This document shows, piece by piece, positions 1,692 to 11,809 of a stretch of DNA of 11,809 bases (positions are counted from its first letter, which is position 1; every line of letters starts with the position of its first letter). Under the pieces are notes generated by a model. That model worked only from the letters and a program-made list of their open reading frames with translations, was not told the origin of the DNA and ran no database searches. Source of the stretch: an uncultured bacterium. Lineage in GTDB: Bacteria; Verrucomicrobiota; Kiritimatiellia; CAIKKV01. Where the stretch lies: positions 1 through 11,809 of the forward strand of contig CAIKKV010000554.1 in assembly GCA_903828035.1 (NCBI GenBank), read 5' to 3'. The translations under genes and the position numbers were made by a program.

Positions 1692-2648
1692 ATGACTCAT
1701 TCCGATTTTCGGTCCGTGAAGGGGCTCGTGTTCGACATCCAGCGGTTTTCGCTGTTTGACGGTCCCGGGATCCGGACCACGGTTTTTTTCAAGGGCTGCC
1801 CGCTGCGCTGCCTCTGGTGTCACAACCCCGAGGGGATCGACCCCCAGGCCCAATTGCTATACAGCTCGGGCCTGTGCGTGAGCTGCGGCTTGTGCGTCAA
1901 AGCCTGTGCGAGCGGAGCCCATGCGATCGACAAGGCGGGGCGCCATACCCTGGACCGGGCGCGCTGCAACGTGTGCGGCGCCTGCGTGGCCGCCTGTCCT
2001 ACGAGGGCGCTTGAGATGGCCGGGCGGACCATGACCGCGGGAGCCGTCATGGACGAGGTGGTCAAGGACCGCTTGTTTTATACGGAGTCGGGCGGCGGCT
2101 TGACGCTGTCGGGCGGCGAGCCCCTGCTGCAGCCCGAGTTCGCCGCCGCGCTGCTACGGGCGGCCCGGGAGGAGGGGCTGCATACGGCGGTCGAGACGTC
2201 AGGCTGCTGTTCCTGGAGCCGGCTGGAGGCGATACTCCCGCTGACCGACCTGTTCCTGTATGATCTCAAGGAGATGGATCCGCTTCGGCATGAAACCTTC
2301 ACGGGCGTGGCGCTGAAGCCGATCCTGGACAATTTGAGCCGGTTGTCTGAGGCCGGGGCGACGATCGTCCTGCGGCTGCCGTTCATTCCCGGCTGCAATG
2401 CCCGGCCCGATCATATTGCCGCCGTGGCGGAATTGGCGGCCGGGCTTACCGGGCCCCTTCGACAGGCTCAGGGCAGGCTTGCTGGAGTGGATCTGTTGCC
2501 CTATCACCGGCTGGGTGAGGGCAAGCGGGCGCGGCTGGGCCTGGCGGAAACGGCGCCGCCGGCGGCTGTCCCTGAAAAGGAAACAATTGCCGGCTGGAAG
2601 AAGGCGTTTGCCGAGGCCGGCCTGCTCGTCCGCACCGCCGACGATTGA
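1692..2648 (+). CDS. Glycyl radical enzyme activase (radical SAM, two extra 4Fe-4S clusters)
   Basis: This cytoplasmic radical-SAM enzyme abstracts hydrogen from the glycyl-loop Gly of the GRE encoded directly upstream. The SAM cluster motif CPLRCLWC uses Cys36, Cys40 and Cys43. Two ferredoxin-type clusters follow: CVSCGLCVKAC (Cys62, 65, 68, 72) and CNVCGACVAAC (Cys92, 95, 98, 102). The SAM-contact motif GGEP is at 141-144, and LLPYHRLG, typical of the family C terminus, is at 268-275. The ferredoxin insert occurs in activases of non-PFL enzymes and is absent from PflA, which agrees with the partner's Cys-x-Glu site. The length (318 aa) is normal. The ATG at 1692 starts 17 bp after the GRE stop; only a weak purine-rich AAGAAG precedes it, so translation may be coupled. 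Oddity: residues about 255-262 (PLRQAQGR) come from a dispersed repeat inserted in frame just before the strand leading to LLPYH. Confidence 0.95.
   Translation: MTHSDFRSVKGLVFDIQRFSLFDGPGIRTTVFFKGCPLRCLWCHNPEGIDPQAQLLYSSGLCVSCGLCVKACASGAHAIDKAGRHTLDRARCNVCGACVAACPTRALEMAGRTMTAGAVMDEVVKDRLFYTESGGGLTLSGGEPLLQPEFAAALLRAAREEGLHTAVETSGCCSWSRLEAILPLTDLFLYDLKEMDPLRHETFTGVALKPILDNLSRLSEAGATIVLRLPFIPGCNARPDHIAAVAELAAGLTGPLRQAQGRLAGVDLLPYHRLGEGKRARLGLAETAPPAAVPEKETIAGWKKAFAEAGLLVRTADD
2454..2480. repeat. Dispersed short repeat inserted in frame within the activase gene
   Basis: The core CCTTCGACAGGCTCAGGGC, plus a few flanking bases, matches a short dispersed repeat that I recognise from its translations in many bacterial genomes (for example FDRLRAG on this strand and LSLSKG on the other). 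Here it is read in a third frame as PLRQAQGR. It contains a direct repeat of CAGGCT (2463-2468 and 2474-2479). Its exact borders need a comparison with an uninterrupted homologue. Recognition comes from memory of the family, not from a search. Confidence 0.7.
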
Positions 2649-2674
2649 GGGCCGCCCTCGTTCCGCTTGATCAT

Positions 2675-2705
2675 GCGGCGCTCACGGGACCGAGCGCCCT
2701 ACCTG
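2675..2705 (-). repeat. REP-like hairpin unit A (family 1, minus orientation)
   Basis: Read on the minus strand, this 31-nt unit begins CAGGTAGGGCG. The tetranucleotide GTAG lies immediately 5' of a hairpin with stem GGCGCTCG paired to TGAGCGCC (7 Watson-Crick pairs plus one G-T) and the 6-nt loop GTCCCG. It is an inverted copy of unit B: the first 11 bases, the loop core GTCCC and the stem base are the same, but the four stem pairs nearest the loop differ in a compensated way. Confidence 0.75.
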
Positions 2706-2723
2706 AAGAATATGTGCAACTGG

Positions 2724-2754
2724 CAGGTAGGGCGGCGAGTCCCTTCGCCGCCGT
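2724..2754 (+). repeat. REP-like hairpin unit B (family 1, plus orientation)
   Basis: This 31-nt unit begins CAGGTAGGGCG and forms a perfect 8-bp hairpin, GGCGGCGA paired to TCGCCGCC (2731-2738 with 2745-2752), with the loop GTCCCT. GTAG (2727-2730) lies directly 5' of the stem, as in REP elements processed by RAYT (TnpA-REP) proteins. It faces unit A head to head across 18 nt (2706-2723), so the outer CGCCCTACCTG and CAGGTAGGGCG arms could also pair over 11 bp. Confidence 0.75.
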
Positions 2755-2759
2755 CATAG

Positions 2760-2783
2760 GTAGCCGCCGCTGATAAGCGGTGG
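2760..2783 (+). repeat. REP-like hairpin unit C (family 2, plus orientation)
   Basis: GTAG (2760-2763) is followed directly by a 7-bp stem, CCGCCGC with GCGGTGG (one G-T pair), closed by the 6-nt loop TGATAA. The bases just before it (AG) extend the 5' tag to AGGTAG, as in units A and B, although the stem and loop sequences belong to a different family. It starts only 5 nt after unit B and is in the same orientation. Confidence 0.7.
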
Positions 2784-2796
2784 ACATGGCGAAAGA

Positions 2797-2820
2797 CCGC
2801 GCCTTAGCAGGCGCGGCTAC
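2797..2820 (-). repeat. REP-like hairpin unit D (family 2, minus orientation), supplies the pfkB-like stop codon
   Basis: On the minus strand GTAG (2820-2817) precedes a perfect 7-bp stem, CCGCGCC with GGCGCGG, and the loop TGCTAA. It is the inverted partner of unit C, with 13 nt (2784-2796) between them. The TAG of its GTAG is the stop codon of the PfkB-family kinase, so the hairpin begins exactly at the 3' end of that gene. It could stabilise the mRNA 3' end or attenuate transcription from the minus strand; no T-tract follows. Confidence 0.75.
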
Positions 2821-3758
2821 GAATAGGCGGCGCGATTGATCACGGCGACCGTCCGCTCCAGCTCCCGCACGCGCGCCAATGAAAGGACCGGCGTGCCCTG
2901 CTGCTCCACGGCGGCGGCGCCGGCGGCCACGGCGCGGGCGGCGATTTCGGGCGTCAGGGTTCGGGCGGGAAAGTAGTCGGCGCAGAACTGGCCGAGCAGG
3001 GTGTCGCCGGCGCCCGTCGTATCCACGCGCGGGACGTCCGGGGATGGCGCGTAGAGTAGGGCTCCGCTTGAGGCAAACCAGGCGCCGGCGGGGCCGTCCG
3101 ACAGGATCACCACTTCATGTCTCCCCGCTAGCTCGCGCAAGGCATCCTTGATGGCGTCAGTCGATTCCAGCCGCCGGCCCAGGACCTGCTCCAACTCGTG
3201 CCGGTTGGGTTTGATCACATCAGGCTTTTCCGCGAGCCCGGCCGGCAGGGCGGGGCCGGAGGTGTCGAGCACGGTGACGCAGGCGGCCTTGCGGAAGATC
3301 CGGATCAGCCGCGCATAGGTGTCGGCCGGAAAGCGGACCGGCAGCGAGCCGCTCAGGATGACAACGGTTCCCGGTATAGCCAGTGTTTCGGCGTAGGCAA
3401 TCAGGGGGCCGTCGGGGAAATCCAGCTCTGGAAACCCGGGTTTGTTAAGCTTCAGTTCGCGTCCGGCGCCATCCGTGAGCATGGTGTTGGTCCGTGTCGC
3501 GAAGGGCACGGCCAAAAACCGGCAGGCGATGCCGGCCGGCGTTAACGCGCCATCGTAGAAGGGCAGGTCCTTTTTCCCGAGCAGACCGCCGGCCGTCACC
3601 GACTTGCCATTTGCCGCAATCATTTTAGCCACGTTCACGCCCTTGCCGCCGGGCGTGCGGGTTTCACCGGTCACGCTGCAGATGGCTCCAAGCGCGAGCG
3701 GTGGCTTCACAAGGACAGTCAAATCGATGGCGGGATTGAGGGTGAGGGTGAGGAACAT
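2817..3758 (-). CDS. PfkB-family sugar-phosphate kinase (1-phosphofructokinase / tagatose-6-phosphate kinase type)
   Basis: This is a soluble PfkB (ribokinase-fold) kinase of 313 aa, a normal length. The N terminus MFLTLTLNPAIDLTV is the standard opening of the 1-phosphofructokinase / tagatose-6-phosphate kinase branch, with substrate-side residues in NPAID. GGKGVNVAK lies at about 37-45. The anion hole and catalytic Asp lie in DTTGAGD (Asp252), near the C terminus as expected. It probably phosphorylates fructose 1-phosphate or tagatose 6-phosphate to the bisphosphate; the motifs do not separate the two. I chose the ATG at 3758 because the family consensus starts there. The frame stays open to an ATG at 3851, but those extra codons translate a dispersed repeat (CHPERSRGIS) that overlaps the end of the giant gene. 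There is no Shine-Dalgarno before 3758, and an alternative ATG at 3785 also lacks one. The stop codon comes from REP-like unit D. No phosphotransferase gene adjoins it. Confidence 0.9.
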   Translation of the reverse strand: MFLTLTLNPAIDLTVLVKPPLALGAICSVTGETRTPGGKGVNVAKMIAANGKSVTAGGLLGKKDLPFYDGALTPAGIACRFLAVPFATRTNTMLTDGAGRELKLNKPGFPELDFPDGPLIAYAETLAIPGTVVILSGSLPVRFPADTYARLIRIFRKAACVTVLDTSGPALPAGLAEKPDVIKPNRHELEQVLGRRLESTDAIKDALRELAGRHEVVILSDGPAGAWFASSGALLYAPSPDVPRVDTTGAGDTLLGQFCADYFPARTLTPEIAARAVAAGAAAVEQQGTPVLSLARVRELERTVAVINRAAYS

Positions 3759-3810: not shown

Positions 3811-3840
3811 GAGATCCCTCGGCTACGCTCGGGATGACAA
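3811..3840 (-). repeat. Dispersed short repeat between the kinase and giant genes
   Basis: On the minus strand the unit contains TCATCCCGAGCGTAGCCGAG followed by GGATCTCC. I recognise it as a widespread dispersed repeat often mistranslated as CHPERSRGIS or SSRAxSRD. Its ends ATCCC and GGGAT form a short inverted repeat. It overlaps the last codons of the giant gene: the final residues SSRA and the TAG stop (3825-3823) lie inside it. It also creates the false N-terminal extension of the kinase frame. Borders are approximate and recognition is from memory. Confidence 0.7.
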
Positions 3841-6800
3841 AGTTTTAGCAACTATTCCGCTGATCGCCAGCACGCCCAGCACCAGGAGGAGGTTGCCGGC
3901 CTTGTGCCACGGGGAGGCGGGAAGGGAGCGGAAGGTGACCCGCAGCGCGGCGTCGGGCTGGATGACGAGCGGGCGCTGCAGCCGGATGCGGACGCCCTGC
4001 TCCGGAACGGTGATCCGGATGGAGCGCGCCACGGCCGTCGCCGCCTTCTGCTGGCCGATGATCTTGTCCGCCGCGACCGTCAGGTTGGCGCTTTCGTCGG
4101 CGGAAAGGGCCTGCTCGATCTGCTTCGCATATTCGGGCGTGAAGTTGCCCGCGTTGTAGCCGGCCGGCTGGTTCGCGGCGCCCTGCTGGGCCACGTCCAC
4201 GTCGATCTGCCGCTCCTGCTGGAGCTCCGAGCGCCGCTGAACGAGGCCCACGATGGCCTGCTGCCGCACCAGGTTCTGGTACTGGACCCGGGCGTCCTCG
4301 TTCAACTCGGCCTCGCCCTGCGAGTAGTTCATGGCTACTTCCAGCGCCTGCTTGGCCTCCTTCTGGTTGCCTGTTTTGATGTAGGATTCGCCCTTGGCCA
4401 TCACGCTCCTGGCCTTGCTCAGGTCCGTGCTCAGCAGCATCCGGTTCTGGCTTGAGTAGATCGACTGGTCGAAGAGCACCGGCCCTTCCAGTTGCTCGGC
4501 CAGGGTGAAATCGCCGCCGAATCCGAAGTAGGTGCGGCCGGGCCGCAGGTAGAGCGTCCAGGTGACATTGTTCAGGGGCAAGTCGAAGGAGGGCGCCTCC
4601 AGGCTGTTGCCGGAGGGCGCCACGCTCCCATAGGTGATCTCGACCGTGGTGGCGTCGCCCGCCAGCGCGCCTTCCAGCGGCAGGCGGTAGGCCTTGCCGC
4701 GGCGGGAGGGGCGGCCCACCTTGCCGTTGACGAAGACGGACCACAGGCTGTCCTTCTCGCCGGGGAGCGTGACGGTCAGGTAGCGCAGGTCGCCGGCGTC
4801 CAGCTCGAGCCGCGCGCGCGTGAGAAGCTGGCCCTCCTCGGCCAGCACCGAGGTCAGCTCCACCTGGCGCACGGTTGCCGGCAGCACGGCGGCCGACCCG
4901 TGGCGCCGGACGTCGAGGGCCAGGACGTAGTCGGGCGAGACTGACCGGTAGCAGAGGATGGCGTCGGAGAGGTCGCCCGCTCCGAACTCGGCCGGCAGCC
5001 CGCGCGAATCCTCGGGCTTCAGCCCTTCCGGCTCGCCCTGCGGCTTCACCTGCATGCGGCCCGACGAGGTGACCGTCACGTAGCCGCGCTGGTTCTCGGC
5101 GTCCAGCGCGCGGAAGGAGCGCACGGCGACCTGGCGGTTGGCGGGATCGAAGGGGCTCTGGCAGCTCGCCCTCAGGATGACCGTCTGCTCGGCCTTGCTG
5201 GCCAGCTCCACCTGCCAGATGCCCTTTTCGGGATCGGCTTCGAACATCTTGGCGACCCCGCGGCCGGTGATCGTGAGCGGCAGGCCGGGGCGGGGCGCCT
5301 GGATGCGGAAGATCTTGCAGCCCGCGTTTTCAATCGTGTACCGGAAGGTGGCGGTCTCGCGCATCATGCCCTCGGCCAGGTCCACGCTGTGCAGCACCTC
5401 GGGCTTGAGCGTGGGCGCCAGCACTTCGGCGGAGAGGGTGACCGACCAGGCCGGCCGCAGGAGGCTGTAGGCCAGCGCCTTGCCGTCGGCCACGCCCAGG
5501 TCCCGGGGATTGATCTCGACCACGCCGTCGCGCGAGGCCGTGGAGAGCCGCACGCCGCGTTCCCCGGTGACGACCAAAGAGCCGCTGTGCTTGACCGCGT
5601 CGCGCACCTCGAGGCGGGGCAGGAGAATCGTTTTCTCGATGCCTTTTTCCATCCGGGAAATAACGACGTTCAGCCGCCGCGTGTCGAGCACCTGGCGCTG
5701 GAAGTGAACAACGACGCCCCGGTTGGTGGCGTCCTTCAGGTCGTCCCAGTGGCTGACCTCCTGCCCGGTGAGCGTTTCCACGTCGTAGCCGGCGGGAATG
5801 CCGAGCGTGAGCGAGAAGATGCCGGCCCGGGCCACGGTGACATCCAGCTGCGAGCTCAGCAGGATGCGCTCGTCGCCGATGGAGAGCGTCGCCGTTTCAA
5901 CGGAGCGGATTTCGGGCACGACCTTGTCTGCGGTCACGGCGAGGCTCGAGCCGGTCTGCTGGTAGCGATAGGCGCGCTTCAGCGTCCGCGCAGCGGCTCC
6001 CGCCTTGGCGGGCGGCTGGGCGGCCCGCGGGAAATCCTCGATGGCCATGCCGCTGACGCCCTCCGCCTTGCCGACGGCGATCTGCACGGAATCGGGGACG
6101 GCCAGGGCGAAGGCGCCGCGCTGGCGGGCGGCCCCGTGCACGGCGGGGGCGGCCAGGACGGCCGCGTAGGGCAGGCCTTCGCGCGGGACCTGCAGGGCGA
6201 TGGCCAGGCTCAGGTTGCCGCTGACAGGGCTCTCGAACAGGGCCTCGAGCTGGCGGGTATCGGAGTCGTACCGCCAGGTGCTGAGGCCCGGCGCGGTGAC
6301 GGCCGTGACGCTCATGCCGGCGGGGATATCCATCACCACCGACTGAAGCTGGCCCTGGGCGATCTGGAGCAAGGCCAGGCAGGAGAGCTCGACCACGCCC
6401 GGCTCGAAGCCGGCATAGGTCTGCACCTCGGCGAAGAAGACGGTCTGCTCGAGCTGCGTTTTGCGCGCCCGGGGCTTCCACCGGATGTCGGCCACGGGCT
6501 CGGCCGTGGGCCGCAGTTCCACCACGGTCTCGGTGGCGGTTTCCCGGATATCCCGGCGCGCCGTGCCGCTGGTCAGGTAAACGTCGACCGGTGCGGCTGG
6601 AATATGCAGCACGGCCTTGGAGAGGCGGGACAGCGGATGGTACAGCCGCACGCCCCACGCGTCGGCCGCCGCGCCCTCGACGAGGGCGGGGAGGACGTAG
6701 CCGAGATGGATCTCGTACGCTCCTTTTTTCAAGACCTTGAGGACGAGGCCCCGCGGCGTGCGTTCAATTTTCAGGTCGCTTGTGAGCGTCGGCGCGTTGG

Positions 6801-9800
6801 TGAGAACGGCGTCCGCACCGGCGGCGAGGAAGGAGCCGGGCTCTTCGGCTTTCACCCGGTAGACGGCTTCCACCTGGAGGCTGGGCTCCGAGTGACGATT
6901 CATGGGCGGGGCGCGGAGCGTCAGGCTGACCTCCTGCAAAATCAGGTCGGCGGGCGAAGGGGCGGGCGGGGTCGGGATGGCCGCGCGTTCGGCGGCGCGC
7001 AGGGCGGGGAGGAGGAGCACGCTGACGCCCAGCGCGAGCAGGAATCCGCGCAGGGTGGCGAAGCCGGAGTCGGCCGGCATGCCGGGGGATTCGGCAACGA
7101 GGTCATCGGAAGGCCGCCGACGGCGGCCGGCTTTCCACGCGGCTTTCAGGACCAGGACGGCCAGGAGCAGCGGGGGTGCGGCGGCCAGCAGGAGGGTCAG
7201 GAGCACCCGCCCCGCGGTGAAGCCGGCGGCGGCCGCCGCCAGGAGGGCCGCGGCCGCATAGCCGGCGGGGCGCGAGCCGCGCGCCAGCGCCAGCACGGCC
7301 AGCAGCAGGCCCAGGCCCAGGGAGGCCAGCAGGCCGAGCCGGGAGAAGCCGGCGCCCAGCCAGGCGGGGGCGGCGTCGAGCACGACCGCCAGCGGCTGGC
7401 CGCCTTCCAGGCTCAGCGTCCGGCTGGCGGAGACGAGCGGTTCCCCGGCGCTGCACGAGAGCTCGCGAATGCCCCAGGAGAAGGGCGCCTTCGCCAGGTG
7501 CATCAGCAGCCCGCCGGCCGCGGCCGAGAGGGTCACGAGAAGCAGCGCGAGCCCGATGCCGAGTCCGAGGCCTCTTCCGCGGGCGGCCGCGAACAGGATC
7601 AGCGCCAGCCCTCCCAGAAGCCCGAGCGCCAGCGTTCCGATGAAGGGGACATCCAGCACGGGGAAGCCCCAGAGGCGGCCGACATTGCGGAGCACCTGCC
7701 AGAGGGCGGCGTCGCGGGGCTGGTCCGGAAGGAGGGTGCCTCCGATGGCGCGAAGCTGCCAGCGGGCGGGCGCCCGGACGGTCCAGCGCGCGAAGGTGGA
7801 CTGCGTGGCGGCCGTGGCGGGCGCCTCCAGCCGCACCGGCCCGCCCAGCGGGCCGAAGGGCGCCGTGGCGGCGGCGTAGGACAGCTCCACCATGAGCGGG
7901 GTGTTCGGATCGCGCAGCCGGTCGAGCGGAATCAGGGTCGCCTGCTCGCCGTTCAGCGGGGAGACGGCCTTGAGGTTGTTTTCCCGGGTTCCGGAGCGGA
8001 CCGACCAGAGCCGCGCGCCGGGCGGCAGCTTGACGGCCAGGTATTGCTGGGAGGCGTTCTTGATGAAATAGGTGACCGTGGTGACCGCTTCGCCGTCGCG
8101 CGCCAGCGTGGTGGTCAGGGCGGTGTGGTCCACCACCTGGTCGAGGAGCCGCTCGGTGTCGTGGCGCGTGAAGGCGAAGGCGGCGCCGGGCGCGGCGCCG
8201 ACATATTTATAGGACGCCACGACGGGGTTGTTCAGCAGCAGGGCGTAGGAGGTGGGGATCTCCTCGCGGTCGATCCGCAGAAGTCCGGGGGCCAGCGTTT
8301 TTTCGGTGACGGTCAGGTTCGCGTCGCTGGCGATGACGAGGTAGCCGACCTCGCCCTCGGTGTCGAGCGCGGAGAGGCCGCCGGCCTCGAAGTCGGCCGC
8401 CGCGTAATCCATGCGCTGGTCGAAGGTCACGAGCAGCGTGTAGGCGCCCATCGCCTTTTCCTGGAGCGTCACGGTCCAGATCTCGCCCTCCTGCGTCCAG
8501 TTCCGGATGTTGCGCCCCGTGAACTCGACATTCTGGAGGCGGGCCGGGATCCGGAGCCGGAGCGTGCGGGCCGGCGCGCCGCTGATGTGATAACTGATCG
8601 AGGCGCTGCCGTAGAGAACGCCTTCGCCGATGGAGCAGAGGTTGAAGATTTCGGCATACAGGGCGGGCTTGGTCCGCTCCACGCTGAACTCGGCGGCCCA
8701 GTTGGCGTCGCGGTAGCGGTAGGCGAGCTGGGCGTCGGGCACGCGCACGGGAATGGCGCCCGCGTGCGCCTCGCGCAGGCCCTCCAGCCGGCCGGCCTTG
8801 AGGCGCAGCCCCTTTTCGGCCGAGGCGACCACGTAGCCGCGCTGCCCCTTGGCCCCCGCGAGGCGGAAGCGGGGCAGCGTGAACGTGTCCACGCCGGAGG
8901 CGAGGTTCCGCTCGAGGCGCAGCTCGACGAGCGTGCGGCCGACCAGGGCCGATTTGAAGGCCAGCCGGATCTGGCGCACGCCGCCGGCGTCGCGGACATC
9001 GTAATCGGCCACCTGGGAGCCGGCCACCGACGCCACGGCCCAGGCGGGGTCGATTTCGAGGACGTCCTCGCGGGCGGGGGCGTCGCGGAACTCGATCTCG
9101 GTGGATGCGGTGAGCACGAGGTCGCGGTCTTCGACCGAGAGAACGAGGCGGTCATCCGAGCTGAACTCGGGCACGATGTCCTGCGCCTCGCAGCTCAGCG
9201 TGTAGGGAAGGTTGGCGTATTGCCAGGCGAACGCATTGCGCTGGGGAAGGGCCCGCGCGGCGGACGGGGCGTCGAGCGCCAGGGTCGGGAAGGCGGCCTG
9301 GTCGATCTGCGTCAGGCCGGAGGTTTTGAGGAGCACGAGCTTGACCGCCGTATCGGCGCCGGCCATGAGAAAGCCGCTGGTGCGCATGACGCCCAGCGGC
9401 AGCAGCGCCGGCAGGTCGAACCGGCAGGGCATATCGGGCAGGGGCATGTCCCCCGTGATCTGGAGGCGGTAGGCGCTCTCCCAGGGGCGGCGGAGGGTGA
9501 CGGACAGCAGCCGGCTTCCATCGGCGGCGGCGGCGGGCGCCATTTTCCATTCCTGGATTTCCGCGCCGGTGACCTCGGTGACATTGATGGCCGCGGGACC
9601 GCGGATATCCATTTTCTGAAGCGCGCCCTGGGAGACGCGGTAGACGAGCAGCGTGTCGAGGCGGAGCGCGCCGACCGTGGTGGCGGCGATGACGTTGGCT
9701 TCGCAGGAGGCGACCAGCTCGCCCTCGCGCTTGCGGAGCTGGGGCTTCCAGCGCACCACGACCGAGGGGGAAGGGGGCAGGAAGGCGCTCACGGAAAGGT

Positions 9801-10284
9801 GGCCGTCCGGCTCGGTCCGCCGCGTCATATCCCGGCCGCCGGGGAACTCGACGTCGGTTTCGGGCTTGTCGGCGGTCACGGCGATGCTCCGGATCAGGGA
9901 AGAAGGCAGGCGGAAGGTGGTTTCATTCCAGCCGTCGGCCTGCGGGGCGACCCGGCTGGCGAAGGTCAGCCGGATGGAATCGCCCGCGAGGGACCGGAAC
10001 CAGCGGGAGCGGCGGGGCGCCTTGAGCACGAGGATGCCGTCCTCCAGCCGGATGGAGGCGCCGGAAGGCAGCTTGGCGCTGAGAAAGGCCACCTCGCCTT
10101 CCACCAGCGGGAGCGAGACGGCGCCGTTTTGAGGCAGGGTGAAGGAAAGGCTAAACGTGGCGTTTTCAGCCTCCAGCGCGCCTTCGATGGCGAGGTTGTC
10201 CAGCGGTCGCGGGGCGGGCTCGGCGGCGAAGGCGGAAAGGGTTGCGGCCAGGCAGGCGGACAACAGGAGGAGGGAACGTTTCAT
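3823..10284 (-). CDS. Giant duplicated membrane-anchored envelope protein (2153 aa), function unknown
   Basis: I do not recognise a named family. MKRSLLLLSACLAATLSAFA followed by AEP is a signal peptide, probably cleaved after about residue 20; LSAC at 8-11 resembles a lipobox but is very early. Lobe 1 (about 28-870) and lobe 2 (about 1110-1930) are beta-rich with no catalytic motif that I can see. They align collinearly, for example RWKPQLRK near 177 with RWKPRARK near 1267. Between them, residues about 880-1095 hold some six hydrophobic helices. The Arg-rich loops (RGRG near 902, ARGSR near 1003, GRRRRP near 1053) suit the cytoplasm, which places both lobes in the periplasm. A helical, TPR-like and Gln-rich stretch (about 1950-2035) follows, then a last membrane helix (about 2129-2148) and the tail KTLSSRA. 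The start is supported by AAAGGAAG 6 nt upstream. The VWA gene lies 38 bp upstream on the same strand. I infer a structural or assembly role in the cell envelope. Confidence 0.88.
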   Translation of the reverse strand: MKRSLLLLSACLAATLSAFAAEPAPRPLDNLAIEGALEAENATFSLSFTLPQNGAVSLPLVEGEVAFLSAKLPSGASIRLEDGILVLKAPRRSRWFRSLAGDSIRLTFASRVAPQADGWNETTFRLPSSLIRSIAVTADKPETDVEFPGGRDMTRRTEPDGHLSVSAFLPPSPSVVVRWKPQLRKREGELVASCEANVIAATTVGALRLDTLLVYRVSQGALQKMDIRGPAAINVTEVTGAEIQEWKMAPAAAADGSRLLSVTLRRPWESAYRLQITGDMPLPDMPCRFDLPALLPLGVMRTSGFLMAGADTAVKLVLLKTSGLTQIDQAAFPTLALDAPSAARALPQRNAFAWQYANLPYTLSCEAQDIVPEFSSDDRLVLSVEDRDLVLTASTEIEFRDAPAREDVLEIDPAWAVASVAGSQVADYDVRDAGGVRQIRLAFKSALVGRTLVELRLERNLASGVDTFTLPRFRLAGAKGQRGYVVASAEKGLRLKAGRLEGLREAHAGAIPVRVPDAQLAYRYRDANWAAEFSVERTKPALYAEIFNLCSIGEGVLYGSASISYHISGAPARTLRLRIPARLQNVEFTGRNIRNWTQEGEIWTVTLQEKAMGAYTLLVTFDQRMDYAAADFEAGGLSALDTEGEVGYLVIASDANLTVTEKTLAPGLLRIDREEIPTSYALLLNNPVVASYKYVGAAPGAAFAFTRHDTERLLDQVVDHTALTTTLARDGEAVTTVTYFIKNASQQYLAVKLPPGARLWSVRSGTRENNLKAVSPLNGEQATLIPLDRLRDPNTPLMVELSYAAATAPFGPLGGPVRLEAPATAATQSTFARWTVRAPARWQLRAIGGTLLPDQPRDAALWQVLRNVGRLWGFPVLDVPFIGTLALGLLGGLALILFAAARGRGLGLGIGLALLLVTLSAAAGGLLMHLAKAPFSWGIRELSCSAGEPLVSASRTLSLEGGQPLAVVLDAAPAWLGAGFSRLGLLASLGLGLLLAVLALARGSRPAGYAAAALLAAAAAGFTAGRVLLTLLLAAAPPLLLAVLVLKAAWKAGRRRRPSDDLVAESPGMPADSGFATLRGFLLALGVSVLLLPALRAAERAAIPTPPAPSPADLILQEVSLTLRAPPMNRHSEPSLQVEAVYRVKAEEPGSFLAAGADAVLTNAPTLTSDLKIERTPRGLVLKVLKKGAYEIHLGYVLPALVEGAAADAWGVRLYHPLSRLSKAVLHIPAAPVDVYLTSGTARRDIRETATETVVELRPTAEPVADIRWKPRARKTQLEQTVFFAEVQTYAGFEPGVVELSCLALLQIAQGQLQSVVMDIPAGMSVTAVTAPGLSTWRYDSDTRQLEALFESPVSGNLSLAIALQVPREGLPYAAVLAAPAVHGAARQRGAFALAVPDSVQIAVGKAEGVSGMAIEDFPRAAQPPAKAGAAARTLKRAYRYQQTGSSLAVTADKVVPEIRSVETATLSIGDERILLSSQLDVTVARAGIFSLTLGIPAGYDVETLTGQEVSHWDDLKDATNRGVVVHFQRQVLDTRRLNVVISRMEKGIEKTILLPRLEVRDAVKHSGSLVVTGERGVRLSTASRDGVVEINPRDLGVADGKALAYSLLRPAWSVTLSAEVLAPTLKPEVLHSVDLAEGMMRETATFRYTIENAGCKIFRIQAPRPGLPLTITGRGVAKMFEADPEKGIWQVELASKAEQTVILRASCQSPFDPANRQVAVRSFRALDAENQRGYVTVTSSGRMQVKPQGEPEGLKPEDSRGLPAEFGAGDLSDAILCYRSVSPDYVLALDVRRHGSAAVLPATVRQVELTSVLAEEGQLLTRARLELDAGDLRYLTVTLPGEKDSLWSVFVNGKVGRPSRRGKAYRLPLEGALAGDATTVEITYGSVAPSGNSLEAPSFDLPLNNVTWTLYLRPGRTYFGFGGDFTLAEQLEGPVLFDQSIYSSQNRMLLSTDLSKARSVMAKGESYIKTGNQKEAKQALEVAMNYSQGEAELNEDARVQYQNLVRQQAIVGLVQRRSELQQERQIDVDVAQQGAANQPAGYNAGNFTPEYAKQIEQALSADESANLTVAADKIIGQQKAATAVARSIRITVPEQGVRIRLQRPLVIQPDAALRVTFRSLPASPWHKAGNLLLVLGVLAISGIVAKTLSSRA

Positions 10285-10322: not shown

Positions 10323-11809
10323 TTACTTGTTGTTTCCGCGTTTCAGCTGGGACGTGGTTTCAACCAGGCGCAGCAGCTCCTGGACGCGGCTGTCGAGCGC
10401 ATACGCCGGGGCGACCCGGCGCAGGCGGCTGGCGACGTCGGAGGCTTCGCCGCCCGCGGCATACGGGCTGCCCCGGAGAATCTCGGCCCACTCGGCGGCG
10501 CAGGCGGCGAGCTGGAGGGAGGGGTCCGCCTGGTCGAAGGCCGGGACCAGCATGCTTTCGGCGAGCGGGGCGGCGATCTCCTCGATGCGGCCGGTGCGCA
10601 GGTCGCGGTAGCGGATGCGGACGACGCCCAGCGGGCCGCGCGAGCCGGGGGCCAGGCCCAGCTCGTAGAGGGCCGTGATCGACTGGCCGGAGCCGACTTC
10701 TCCGGCGTCGACGGAGTTGTCCCTGAAATCTTCTTTTTTCAGCTGGCGGTTCTCGTAGCCGAGCTGGCGGTGCTGCCCCACGCGGGAGGGGGCGAACTCG
10801 ACCTGGATCTTCACATCCGCGGCCACGGTGTTGAGGGTGGCGGAGAGGTCGTCCACGAAGACGCGGCGGGCTTCGTCGAGGGAGTCGAGGTAGACGTAGG
10901 AGCCGTCGCCCTTGTTGGCCAGCGTTTCGAGCATGGCGTCGTTCAGCCCGCCGCGACCGACGCCGTAGACGGAGCAGAAGATGCCCTGCCGGCGGGAGTC
11001 GGCCACGACGGCCAGGATTTCCTCGGCCGTGGCGCCGCCGAGGTTGGCGGCGCCGTCGGAGAGGAGCAGCACGCGGTTGCCGGCGCCGGGCTGGAAGGCG
11101 CGGCGGGCGCTCTCGTAGGCCAGGCGCATGCCTTCCTCCAGGTTGGTCGAGCCGGAGGTCTGCAGCGCGTTGATGGCCTTGAGGATCCGGGCCTTGTCGC
11201 CGGCGCGGGTGTAGTCCAGGACGAGCCGGGCGTGGCTGTCGAACTGGACGATGCCCACCGCGTCCTCGGGCGACAGCTTGTCGACCAGCAGGCGCAGGGC
11301 CTGCTGGACGAGGCCGAGCCGCTCGGGGCTGCTCATGGAGCCGGAGGAGTCGATGGCGAAGGTGAGCACGGCGGGGCGGTTCTCCTCGCGGCCGAGGTGG
11401 CGGGCCTTGACGCCGATGCGCAGGAGCTGCTGGCCCGGGCGGAAGGGCGCGGGAGCGCACTGGGAGTGGACGGCGAAGAGCGCCTCGGCGGGCGGCGGGG
11501 AGTAGTGGTAGTCGAAAAAGTTGACGATCTCCTCGGTCCGCACGGCCTCGGGCGGCGGCAGCTTGCCCTGGAGCAGGCTGTTACGGGTGAAGGTGTAGGA
11601 GGCGGTGTCCACGTCGATGGAGAAGGTGGAGAAGGGTTGCTTCGCGGTTTCGACAGTGGGGTTCACGCCATAGGCGCGGAATTGGCTGACGCTATCGCGC
11701 TCCTTTTTCTCGCGGGATTCGCCGGATTTGGAGGCGAAGAAGTCGGACGAGTCGGACCGGTCGGACCCGTCAGACACGTCCGACTTGTCGGAGTCGGAGT
11801 CGGCGGCTC
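10323..11809 (-). CDS. YfbK-like von Willebrand factor A domain protein, N terminus outside window
   Basis: The order of parts matches the YfbK family: an N-terminal vWF_A-associated region (NPTVETAKQPFSTFSIDVDT and on), a VWA domain, then a DUF3520-like C-terminal region (from about RDNSVDAGEVGSG). Counting from the GTG at 11777, the MIDAS metal site is complete: DSSGS at 143-147, Thr211 in GSTNLEEG, and Asp241 in LLSDG. The domain should therefore bind a divalent cation and a protein ligand. The frame stays open upstream of that GTG to the window edge, reading through an Asp/Ser-rich linker, so the true start and any export signal lie outside. Family members are usually lipoproteins or exported, which I infer here. 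The stop TAA at 10325-10323 lies 38 bp before the giant envelope gene on the same strand, so the two are probably cotranscribed and may act together. The molecular role of this family is poorly known. Confidence 0.93.
   Translation of the reverse strand, partial: AADSDSDKSDVSDGSDRSDSSDFFASKSGESREKKERDSVSQFRAYGVNPTVETAKQPFSTFSIDVDTASYTFTRNSLLQGKLPPPEAVRTEEIVNFFDYHYSPPPAEALFAVHSQCAPAPFRPGQQLLRIGVKARHLGREENRPAVLTFAIDSSGSMSSPERLGLVQQALRLLVDKLSPEDAVGIVQFDSHARLVLDYTRAGDKARILKAINALQTSGSTNLEEGMRLAYESARRAFQPGAGNRVLLLSDGAANLGGATAEEILAVVADSRRQGIFCSVYGVGRGGLNDAMLETLANKGDGSYVYLDSLDEARRVFVDDLSATLNTVAADVKIQVEFAPSRVGQHRQLGYENRQLKKEDFRDNSVDAGEVGSGQSITALYELGLAPGSRGPLGVVRIRYRDLRTGRIEEIAAPLAESMLVPAFDQADPSLQLAACAAEWAEILRGSPYAAGGEASDVASRLRRVAPAYALDSRVQELLRLVETTSQLKRGNNK
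11742..11795. repeat. 9-nt tandem repeat encoding an Asp/Ser-rich linker
   Basis: Six consecutive 9-nt units of the form GTCGGACnn (some diverged, for example GTCAGACAC and GTCCGACTT) run on the plus strand. On the coding minus strand each unit encodes Ser-Asp-x or a close variant, giving a hydrophilic stretch such as SDGSDRSDSSDFF between the missing N terminus and the vWF_A region. The series continues less regularly towards the window edge. Confidence 0.8.

Follow-up and report, generated by a model that had tools for sequence, protein, structure and literature searches.

The window (the whole stretch of DNA that was analysed, 11,809 nt) carries, between two convergent genes, what are in all probability two REP dimers of the BIME/REPIN type, which lie side by side, belong to two GTAG families and would each be recognised by their own RAYT/TnpAREP. 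The window sequence, read directly, contained four GTAG-tagged hairpins at 2677-2820 in the order A(-) B(+) C(+) D(-), base for base as the original prediction had described them. The units, their spacers and the genes on either side are as follows.

1692-2648, plus strand: upstream gene, glycyl-radical-enzyme activating protein (TIGR02494); ends 28 bp before unit A

2677-2702, minus strand: REP unit A, family A/B; tag 2702-2699; GTAG-GGCGCTCG-GTCCCG-TGAGCGCC; 8-bp stem, loop GTCCCG

2703-2726, no strand: A/B spacer, 24 nt, inside the tags-inward (TT) dimer

2727-2752, plus strand: REP unit B, family A/B; tag 2727-2730; GTAG-GGCGGCGA-GTCCCT-TCGCCGCC; 8-bp stem, loop GTCCCT

2760-2783, plus strand: REP unit C, family C/D; tag 2760-2763; GTAG-CCGCCGC-TGATAA-GCGGTGG; 7-bp stem, loop TGATAA

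2784-2796, no strand: C/D spacer, 13 nt, inside the tags-outward (HH) dimer

2797-2820, minus strand: REP unit D, family C/D; tag 2820-2817; GTAG-CCGCGCC-TGCTAA-GGCGCGG; 7-bp stem, loop TGCTAA

2817-3851, minus strand: convergent PfkB hexose kinase gene (TIGR03168); profile match from residue 34

As expected of REP/BIME elements, an unpaired GTAG stands directly 5' of a 20-40 nt palindrome in each unit, and the units form inverted pairs, with a TT dimer in A/B, an HH dimer in C/D and further inverted pairs in relatives. The compensatory stem changes that had been claimed were all present. Units A and B differ by G-C/C-G, C-G/T-A, G-C/C-G and A-T/G-T, and units C and D by two swapped pairs (C-G/G-C and G-C/C-G) and one G-C/G-T. 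Alternative folds are available to three of the units: with the loop reduced to 4 nt, the stem has 8 bp in C and D and 9 bp in B. In the minimum-energy fold, unit A pairs with unit B to give one long hairpin instead of two separate ones. The fold of the strand had a z-score of -5.0. The pattern GTAGN8GTCCC was found twice in the window against 0.04 expected, and GTAGN7TGNTAA twice against 0.00 expected. The window had four instances of GTAG directly 5' of a 7-8 bp stem; 500 first-order Markov shuffles had 0.18 on average and never more than 3, and none of them placed two GTAG hairpins within 146 bp. The window was without a match in Rfam at the gathering thresholds.

Both families are dispersed in related genomes, where the copies retain the tag, the loop and the pairing. 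Of 288 genomes of the class, 61 contained the A/B pattern and 13 the C/D pattern, each pattern with one match in the reversed control. A BLAST search with window positions 2660-2835 gave matches in 15 of 58 genomes, including G001, the nearest relative. Identical copies of unit B (a 26-mer) and of unit C (a 24-mer) were found in G001 and also in other genomes, which for unit B are genomes of the class. G001 contained eight strict A copies, several of them as inverted pairs, and one strict C copy, and 59 strict A copies were counted in genome G078. A C/D dimer in G001 (L033/L034), together with part of the spacer, showed 85% identity to window 2760-2820 at a different place, which is consistent with mobility of the dimer; the first eight bases of the C/D spacer, ACATGGCG, are identical there (G001:C5, L033).

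With two units of each family, the window by itself would give thin evidence for covariation, and it is the copies in relatives that supply it. Among the matches listed, 32 of 41 distinct A-type sequences paired in all four pattern-free columns, compared with a mean of 2.4 and a maximum of 8 fully paired sequences in shuffles. The remaining nine were without full pairing, and two of these (both from G222) are probably another repeat. Similarly, 18 of the 20 distinct C-type sequences listed paired in all three pattern-free columns (shuffles: mean 4.5, maximum 12). The pairing in the free columns of both types is covariation, with the reservation that the shuffle statistics ignore the kinship of the copies. 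The earlier claim that the fold, and not the sequence alone, has been conserved is supported.

The side-by-side position of the two dimers was also considered as a composite unit, and this was rejected. Both strict patterns were present in three of the 288 genomes (G001, G011 and G013), where independence predicts approximately 2.75, and among the matches listed the A/B and C/D copies lay on different contigs in all three. With co-occurrence near independence and separate contigs, the neighbourhood of A/B and C/D in the window looks like coincidence.

Y1 HUH genes adjoining the same REP families were identified in relatives, in line with the check proposed in the original prediction, for family A at L133, L136, L205 and L072 and for C-type hairpins at L083. 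In G078 (L133), a RAYT gene has family-A hairpins on both flanks; in G081 (L136), an A pair lies just downstream of the RAYT; and in G101 (L205), a strict A copy lies 151 bp before the RAYT match. The RAYT of G011 (L072) has A-type stems on one side, with the loops altered to CGCCGT/GGCCCT. In G014 (L083/L141), the RAYT lies within an array of C-type hairpins, the loops of which are TGTCAA/GGTCAC, with one TGTTAA, and not TGATAA. Within L083, at 1210-2064, C-type REPs were also noted inside the RAYT's own reading frame, downstream of the Y motif, where they give rise to repeated peptide pieces such as AVTGAATG.

The RAYT proteins were compared with the REP-associated tyrosine transposase family NF047646 and with solved structures. 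The HxH, Q, Y and NPV motifs, which include the catalytic tyrosine, were invariant in seven aligned RAYTs. The NF047646 scores were 85.6 bits for L072, 77.8 for L136, 77.2 for L133 and 43.9 for L083, so that one of the four scored RAYTs (L072) passes the 80-bit cut-off and three fall below it, L136 and L133 just short and L083 well short; the E-values of the four range from 3e-24 to 2.2e-11. L136 and L072 share 51% identity. L136 and L133 were just under the cut-off of Pfam Y1_Tnp, and no Pfam match was returned for L072 or L083. L136 matched the solved E. coli TnpArep structure (4er8) with E = 2.3e-4, and L083 had no PDB match at E ≤ 0.01.

Other observations speak against a simple picture. 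Although G001 carries both families, the five RAYT-like genes scanned there (L029, L030, L031, L032/L064 and L084) had other hairpins on their flanks, or none, so that the nearest relative does not mirror the earlier suggestion of one or two active RAYTs elsewhere in the window's genome. Across eight A-rich genomes, family-A hairpins were present at only two of 30 Y1-transposase loci (L133 and L136). A search of eight C-carrying genomes with the L083 protein found no second RAYT adjoined by C-type hairpins, and the C-family association is therefore a single locus (L083/L141). Inspection by eye of the ORFs listed for G006:C10 (L053), between clustered C copies, revealed no RAYT. RAYT-like genes as such are nearly universal in the class of G001, with 257 of 288 genomes matching NF047646 at E ≤ 1e-6 and most genomes having several matches. 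Together with the retention of tag, loop and pairing in dispersed copies, the RAYT genes adjoining such units in relatives uphold the identification of the hairpins as REP/BIME elements of two families.

The four units are extragenic and downstream of genes, as REP elements mostly are, and lie between the two convergent genes, with unit D overlapping the pfkB stop codon: the TAG of its tag is that codon. The start of pfkB is probably at approximately 3758, since the protein matches the profile from residue 34 onwards. This placement, exactly between convergent genes and with a REP unit supplying a stop codon, would also suit hairpins that act purely as a bidirectional terminator or as a protector of the mRNA 3' ends, with no history as a mobile element, and stable RNA folds are predicted on both strands. 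Such a reading is nevertheless very unlikely, because these tagged units are found at numerous other sites in those 61 and 13 genomes and adjoin RAYT genes, and because the conserved GTAG is unpaired and unnecessary for a terminator. The hairpins may have a role at the RNA level on top of their identity as REPs.

In G001, 16 bp separate the pfkB relative (L001) from the end of the opposite-strand ORF that comes next, and no unit is present there. This agrees with an insertion in a single lineage; as the downstream neighbours differ, the site does not amount to an empty-site comparison. Several other features of the neighbourhood were noted. A 2153-aa ORF (window 3823-10284, minus strand) was without a Pfam match at E ≤ 0.001 and had one relative in the searched genome contigs, also in L001 (G001, PVC group bacterium MiH-14oct19-188), with 74% identity over the best segment and the same two kinds of neighbouring gene. 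On this relationship, the probable source of the window is an uncultured PVC-group bacterium. Inside the activase gene, positions 2458-2474 read TTCGACAGGCTCAGGGC, which we take to be part of a common dispersed palindromic repeat; this region of the activase has extra residues in the alignment with 3can and none in the alignment with PflA 3c8f. On the minus strand at 3811-3838, upstream of the likely pfkB start, lies GTCATCCCGAGCGTAGCCGAGGGATCTC, presumably another common repeat type. A 23-nt inverted repeat at 11740-11786, with arms 1 nt apart and 87% complementary, is located at the start of a von Willebrand/YfbK-type gene.

That the units are what remains of the ends of complete IS200/IS605 insertion sequences is highly improbable. 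RAYTs are related to the transposases of these elements, L032 and L029 match transpos_IS200 weakly and far under its cut-off, and the ends of such insertion sequences are likewise hairpins with a 5' guide tetranucleotide, according to PMC6006769. However, the best match of the RAYT genes near the units is the REP-associated transposase family, the units enclose no transposase gene, as the two hairpin ends of an insertion sequence would, and short inverted dimers, with 59 strict A copies in G078 alone, are unlike full insertion sequences. Chance palindromes, although the window is GC-rich and has many imperfect inverted repeats, are refuted to the point of negligible probability by the Markov shuffles and by the covarying copies in other genomes.

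The preferred reading, two REP dimers of two GTAG families with their own RAYTs, would operate as follows. Each family would be a non-autonomous repeat, the folded single strand of which presents the GTAG tag and a hairpin with a family-specific loop. By analogy with the TnpAREP proteins of E. coli and of group 3, the family's own RAYT, an HUH-tyrosine nuclease, would recognise the tag, the stem and the loop of this strand, and would cleave and rejoin single-stranded REP DNA through its HUH/Tyr centre. REP dimers would spread in this way, and the copies would then remain as extragenic palindromes at the ends of genes. We infer cleavage, mobilisation and any influence on the mRNA 3' ends of both genes from published work on other REPs. 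What the sequences themselves provide is the structure, the dispersal, the conservation of tag and loop with covariation of the stem, and the RAYT genes that adjoin these families in related genomes.

The tags of other REP families of the class were analysed at 130 RAYT loci. GTAG was the most enriched of the 256 tetramers 5' of hairpins; GGAG ranked fifth, next after GTAG apart from shifted GTAG registers, and CGTC ranked 118th. PMC6006769 gives the canonical tag as GT[AG]G, with CnGA for class 3. REP families tagged with GGAG adjoin RAYTs at L064, L129, L139, L177, L180, L195, L234, L245, L264, L273, L278, L281, L282, L326 and other loci. GGAG was not found as a named REP tag in the REP literature covered, which is partial and does not establish its absence in print. 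The papers listed as joining RAYT with GGAG were unrelated by title; three REP papers contain the letters GGAG, namely PMC3686654 (in the passages covered, inside GTAG or GTGG REPs), PMC2817692 and PMC3116915.

The tag was found to correlate with one RAYT residue. From 277 RAYT loci, 89 were used in which the RAYT motif was clear and at least two hairpins sharing one loop formed a family tagged with GTAG or GGAG; 68 were excluded as being without a clear motif, 119 as being without such a family and one as a duplicate. At position X of the motif WQ..F[FW][DE]X, His was present in 56 of 58 RAYTs with GTAG families, and Arg or Thr in 28 of 31 with GGAG families. The correlation was first noticed in 202 loci, and the other 75, from genomes unused before (15 and 60 further listed places), served as a hold-out, in which GTAG went with His in 17 of 17 and GGAG with Arg or Thr in 8 of 10. 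When the tag at these 75 loci was called by a tag-agnostic procedure requiring at least three hairpins, the agreement was 10 of 10 for GTAG/His and 5 of 5 for GGAG/Arg-Thr, and the remaining hold-out loci had another top tetramer or none. In the alignment with 4er8, E. coli H101 falls at position X, and PMC6006769 lists H101 among the E. coli TnpAREP residues contacting GTAG. The same source reports that H101 is sometimes R in subclasses 2.5 and 2.7, the REPs of which carry GT[AG]G tags, an exception that counts against a tag code.

The correlation is strong in counts, but the number of independent events is small. In a tree computed without the trait columns, the tag required seven changes, the residue four and the concordant GGAG group four (three of them forced by starred branches). 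Four independent pairs differed in tag on starred branches, and the residue was concordant in one and unchanged in three; in three pairs differing in residue, the tag followed in approximately two and was the same in approximately one. A sign test on these few independent pairs cannot reach significance. It is possible, though we would not call it probable, that a near one-residue code governs how the RAYTs of the phylum recognise the REP tag, in which His would specify GTAG, and Thr or Arg GGAG. If this is true, tag specificity would be predictable from the RAYT sequence. Judging from the RAYTs that adjoin related units in related genomes (L072, L083, L133 and L136), the window families would be on the GTAG/His side. 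Some Arg-type RAYTs in the phylum hold-out (L288, L298, L301, L303, L309, L314, L328 and others) had the apparent tags GAGC, GAAC and GACC, with loops such as ACC, TCCA and CCCA; these hairpins are possibly further tag classes. Complementarity between tag and loop (GTAG with CTAC loops, GGAG with CTCC loops) was also considered and was dropped, because one clade keeps GTAG with the loops CTCCGT, CTCTGC, CTACGC and CTCAGC (L200, L208, L221 and L214), and because families A and C lack such complementarity.

Covarying tagged hairpins that were read from a sequence alone have thus turned out, with high probability, to be genuine REPs. The class is very rich in RAYTs, with many tag and loop families, and provides good material for the question of how each RAYT recognises its REP. 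A literature search returned no paper joining REP elements and Kiritimatiell-.

Among described systems, the E. coli REP/BIME elements with their TnpAREP (group 2; 4er8; PMC8266576) share with the window units the GTAG tag, the inverted pairs and an HUH-Y1 protein, and the family-A RAYT L136 is alignable to the E. coli structure. The E. coli REPs differ in having a long, bulged stem, whereas the window units are short perfect palindromes. In this they resemble the group 3 REPs of Stenotrophomonas, Marinomonas and Pseudomonas, which are likewise short perfect GTAG palindromes and in which single loop positions are reported to be crucial for the cognate TnpAREP (PMC8266576, PMC3686654); this loop requirement fits the fixed loops of families A/B and C/D. 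The likeness to group 3 concerns the REPs; the loop sequences and the lineage are other than those of the window families. The closest description is that of the GTAG REPs by Di Nocera et al. (2013, PMC3733652), where GTAG stands directly 5' of a stem of mostly 6-9 bp. HH and TT dimers, heterodimer stems, alternative complementary stem residues, several families per genome, intergenic positions between convergent ORFs and repeat-specific RAYT genes are all described there, and the hosts include PVC bacteria such as Opitutus terrae, 'highly enriched in GTAG repeats'. In those terms, the window dimers are a TT (A/B) and an HH (C/D) heterodimer. The comparison with the 24 families of that paper was by description, and either window family may equal one of them. 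As GTAG REPs of PVC hosts, multiple families, heterodimers and convergent placement are already on record there, families A/B and C/D are of a known kind: they are further members of the described GTAG REP superfamily, to which they would add two families of an uncultured PVC-type bacterium.
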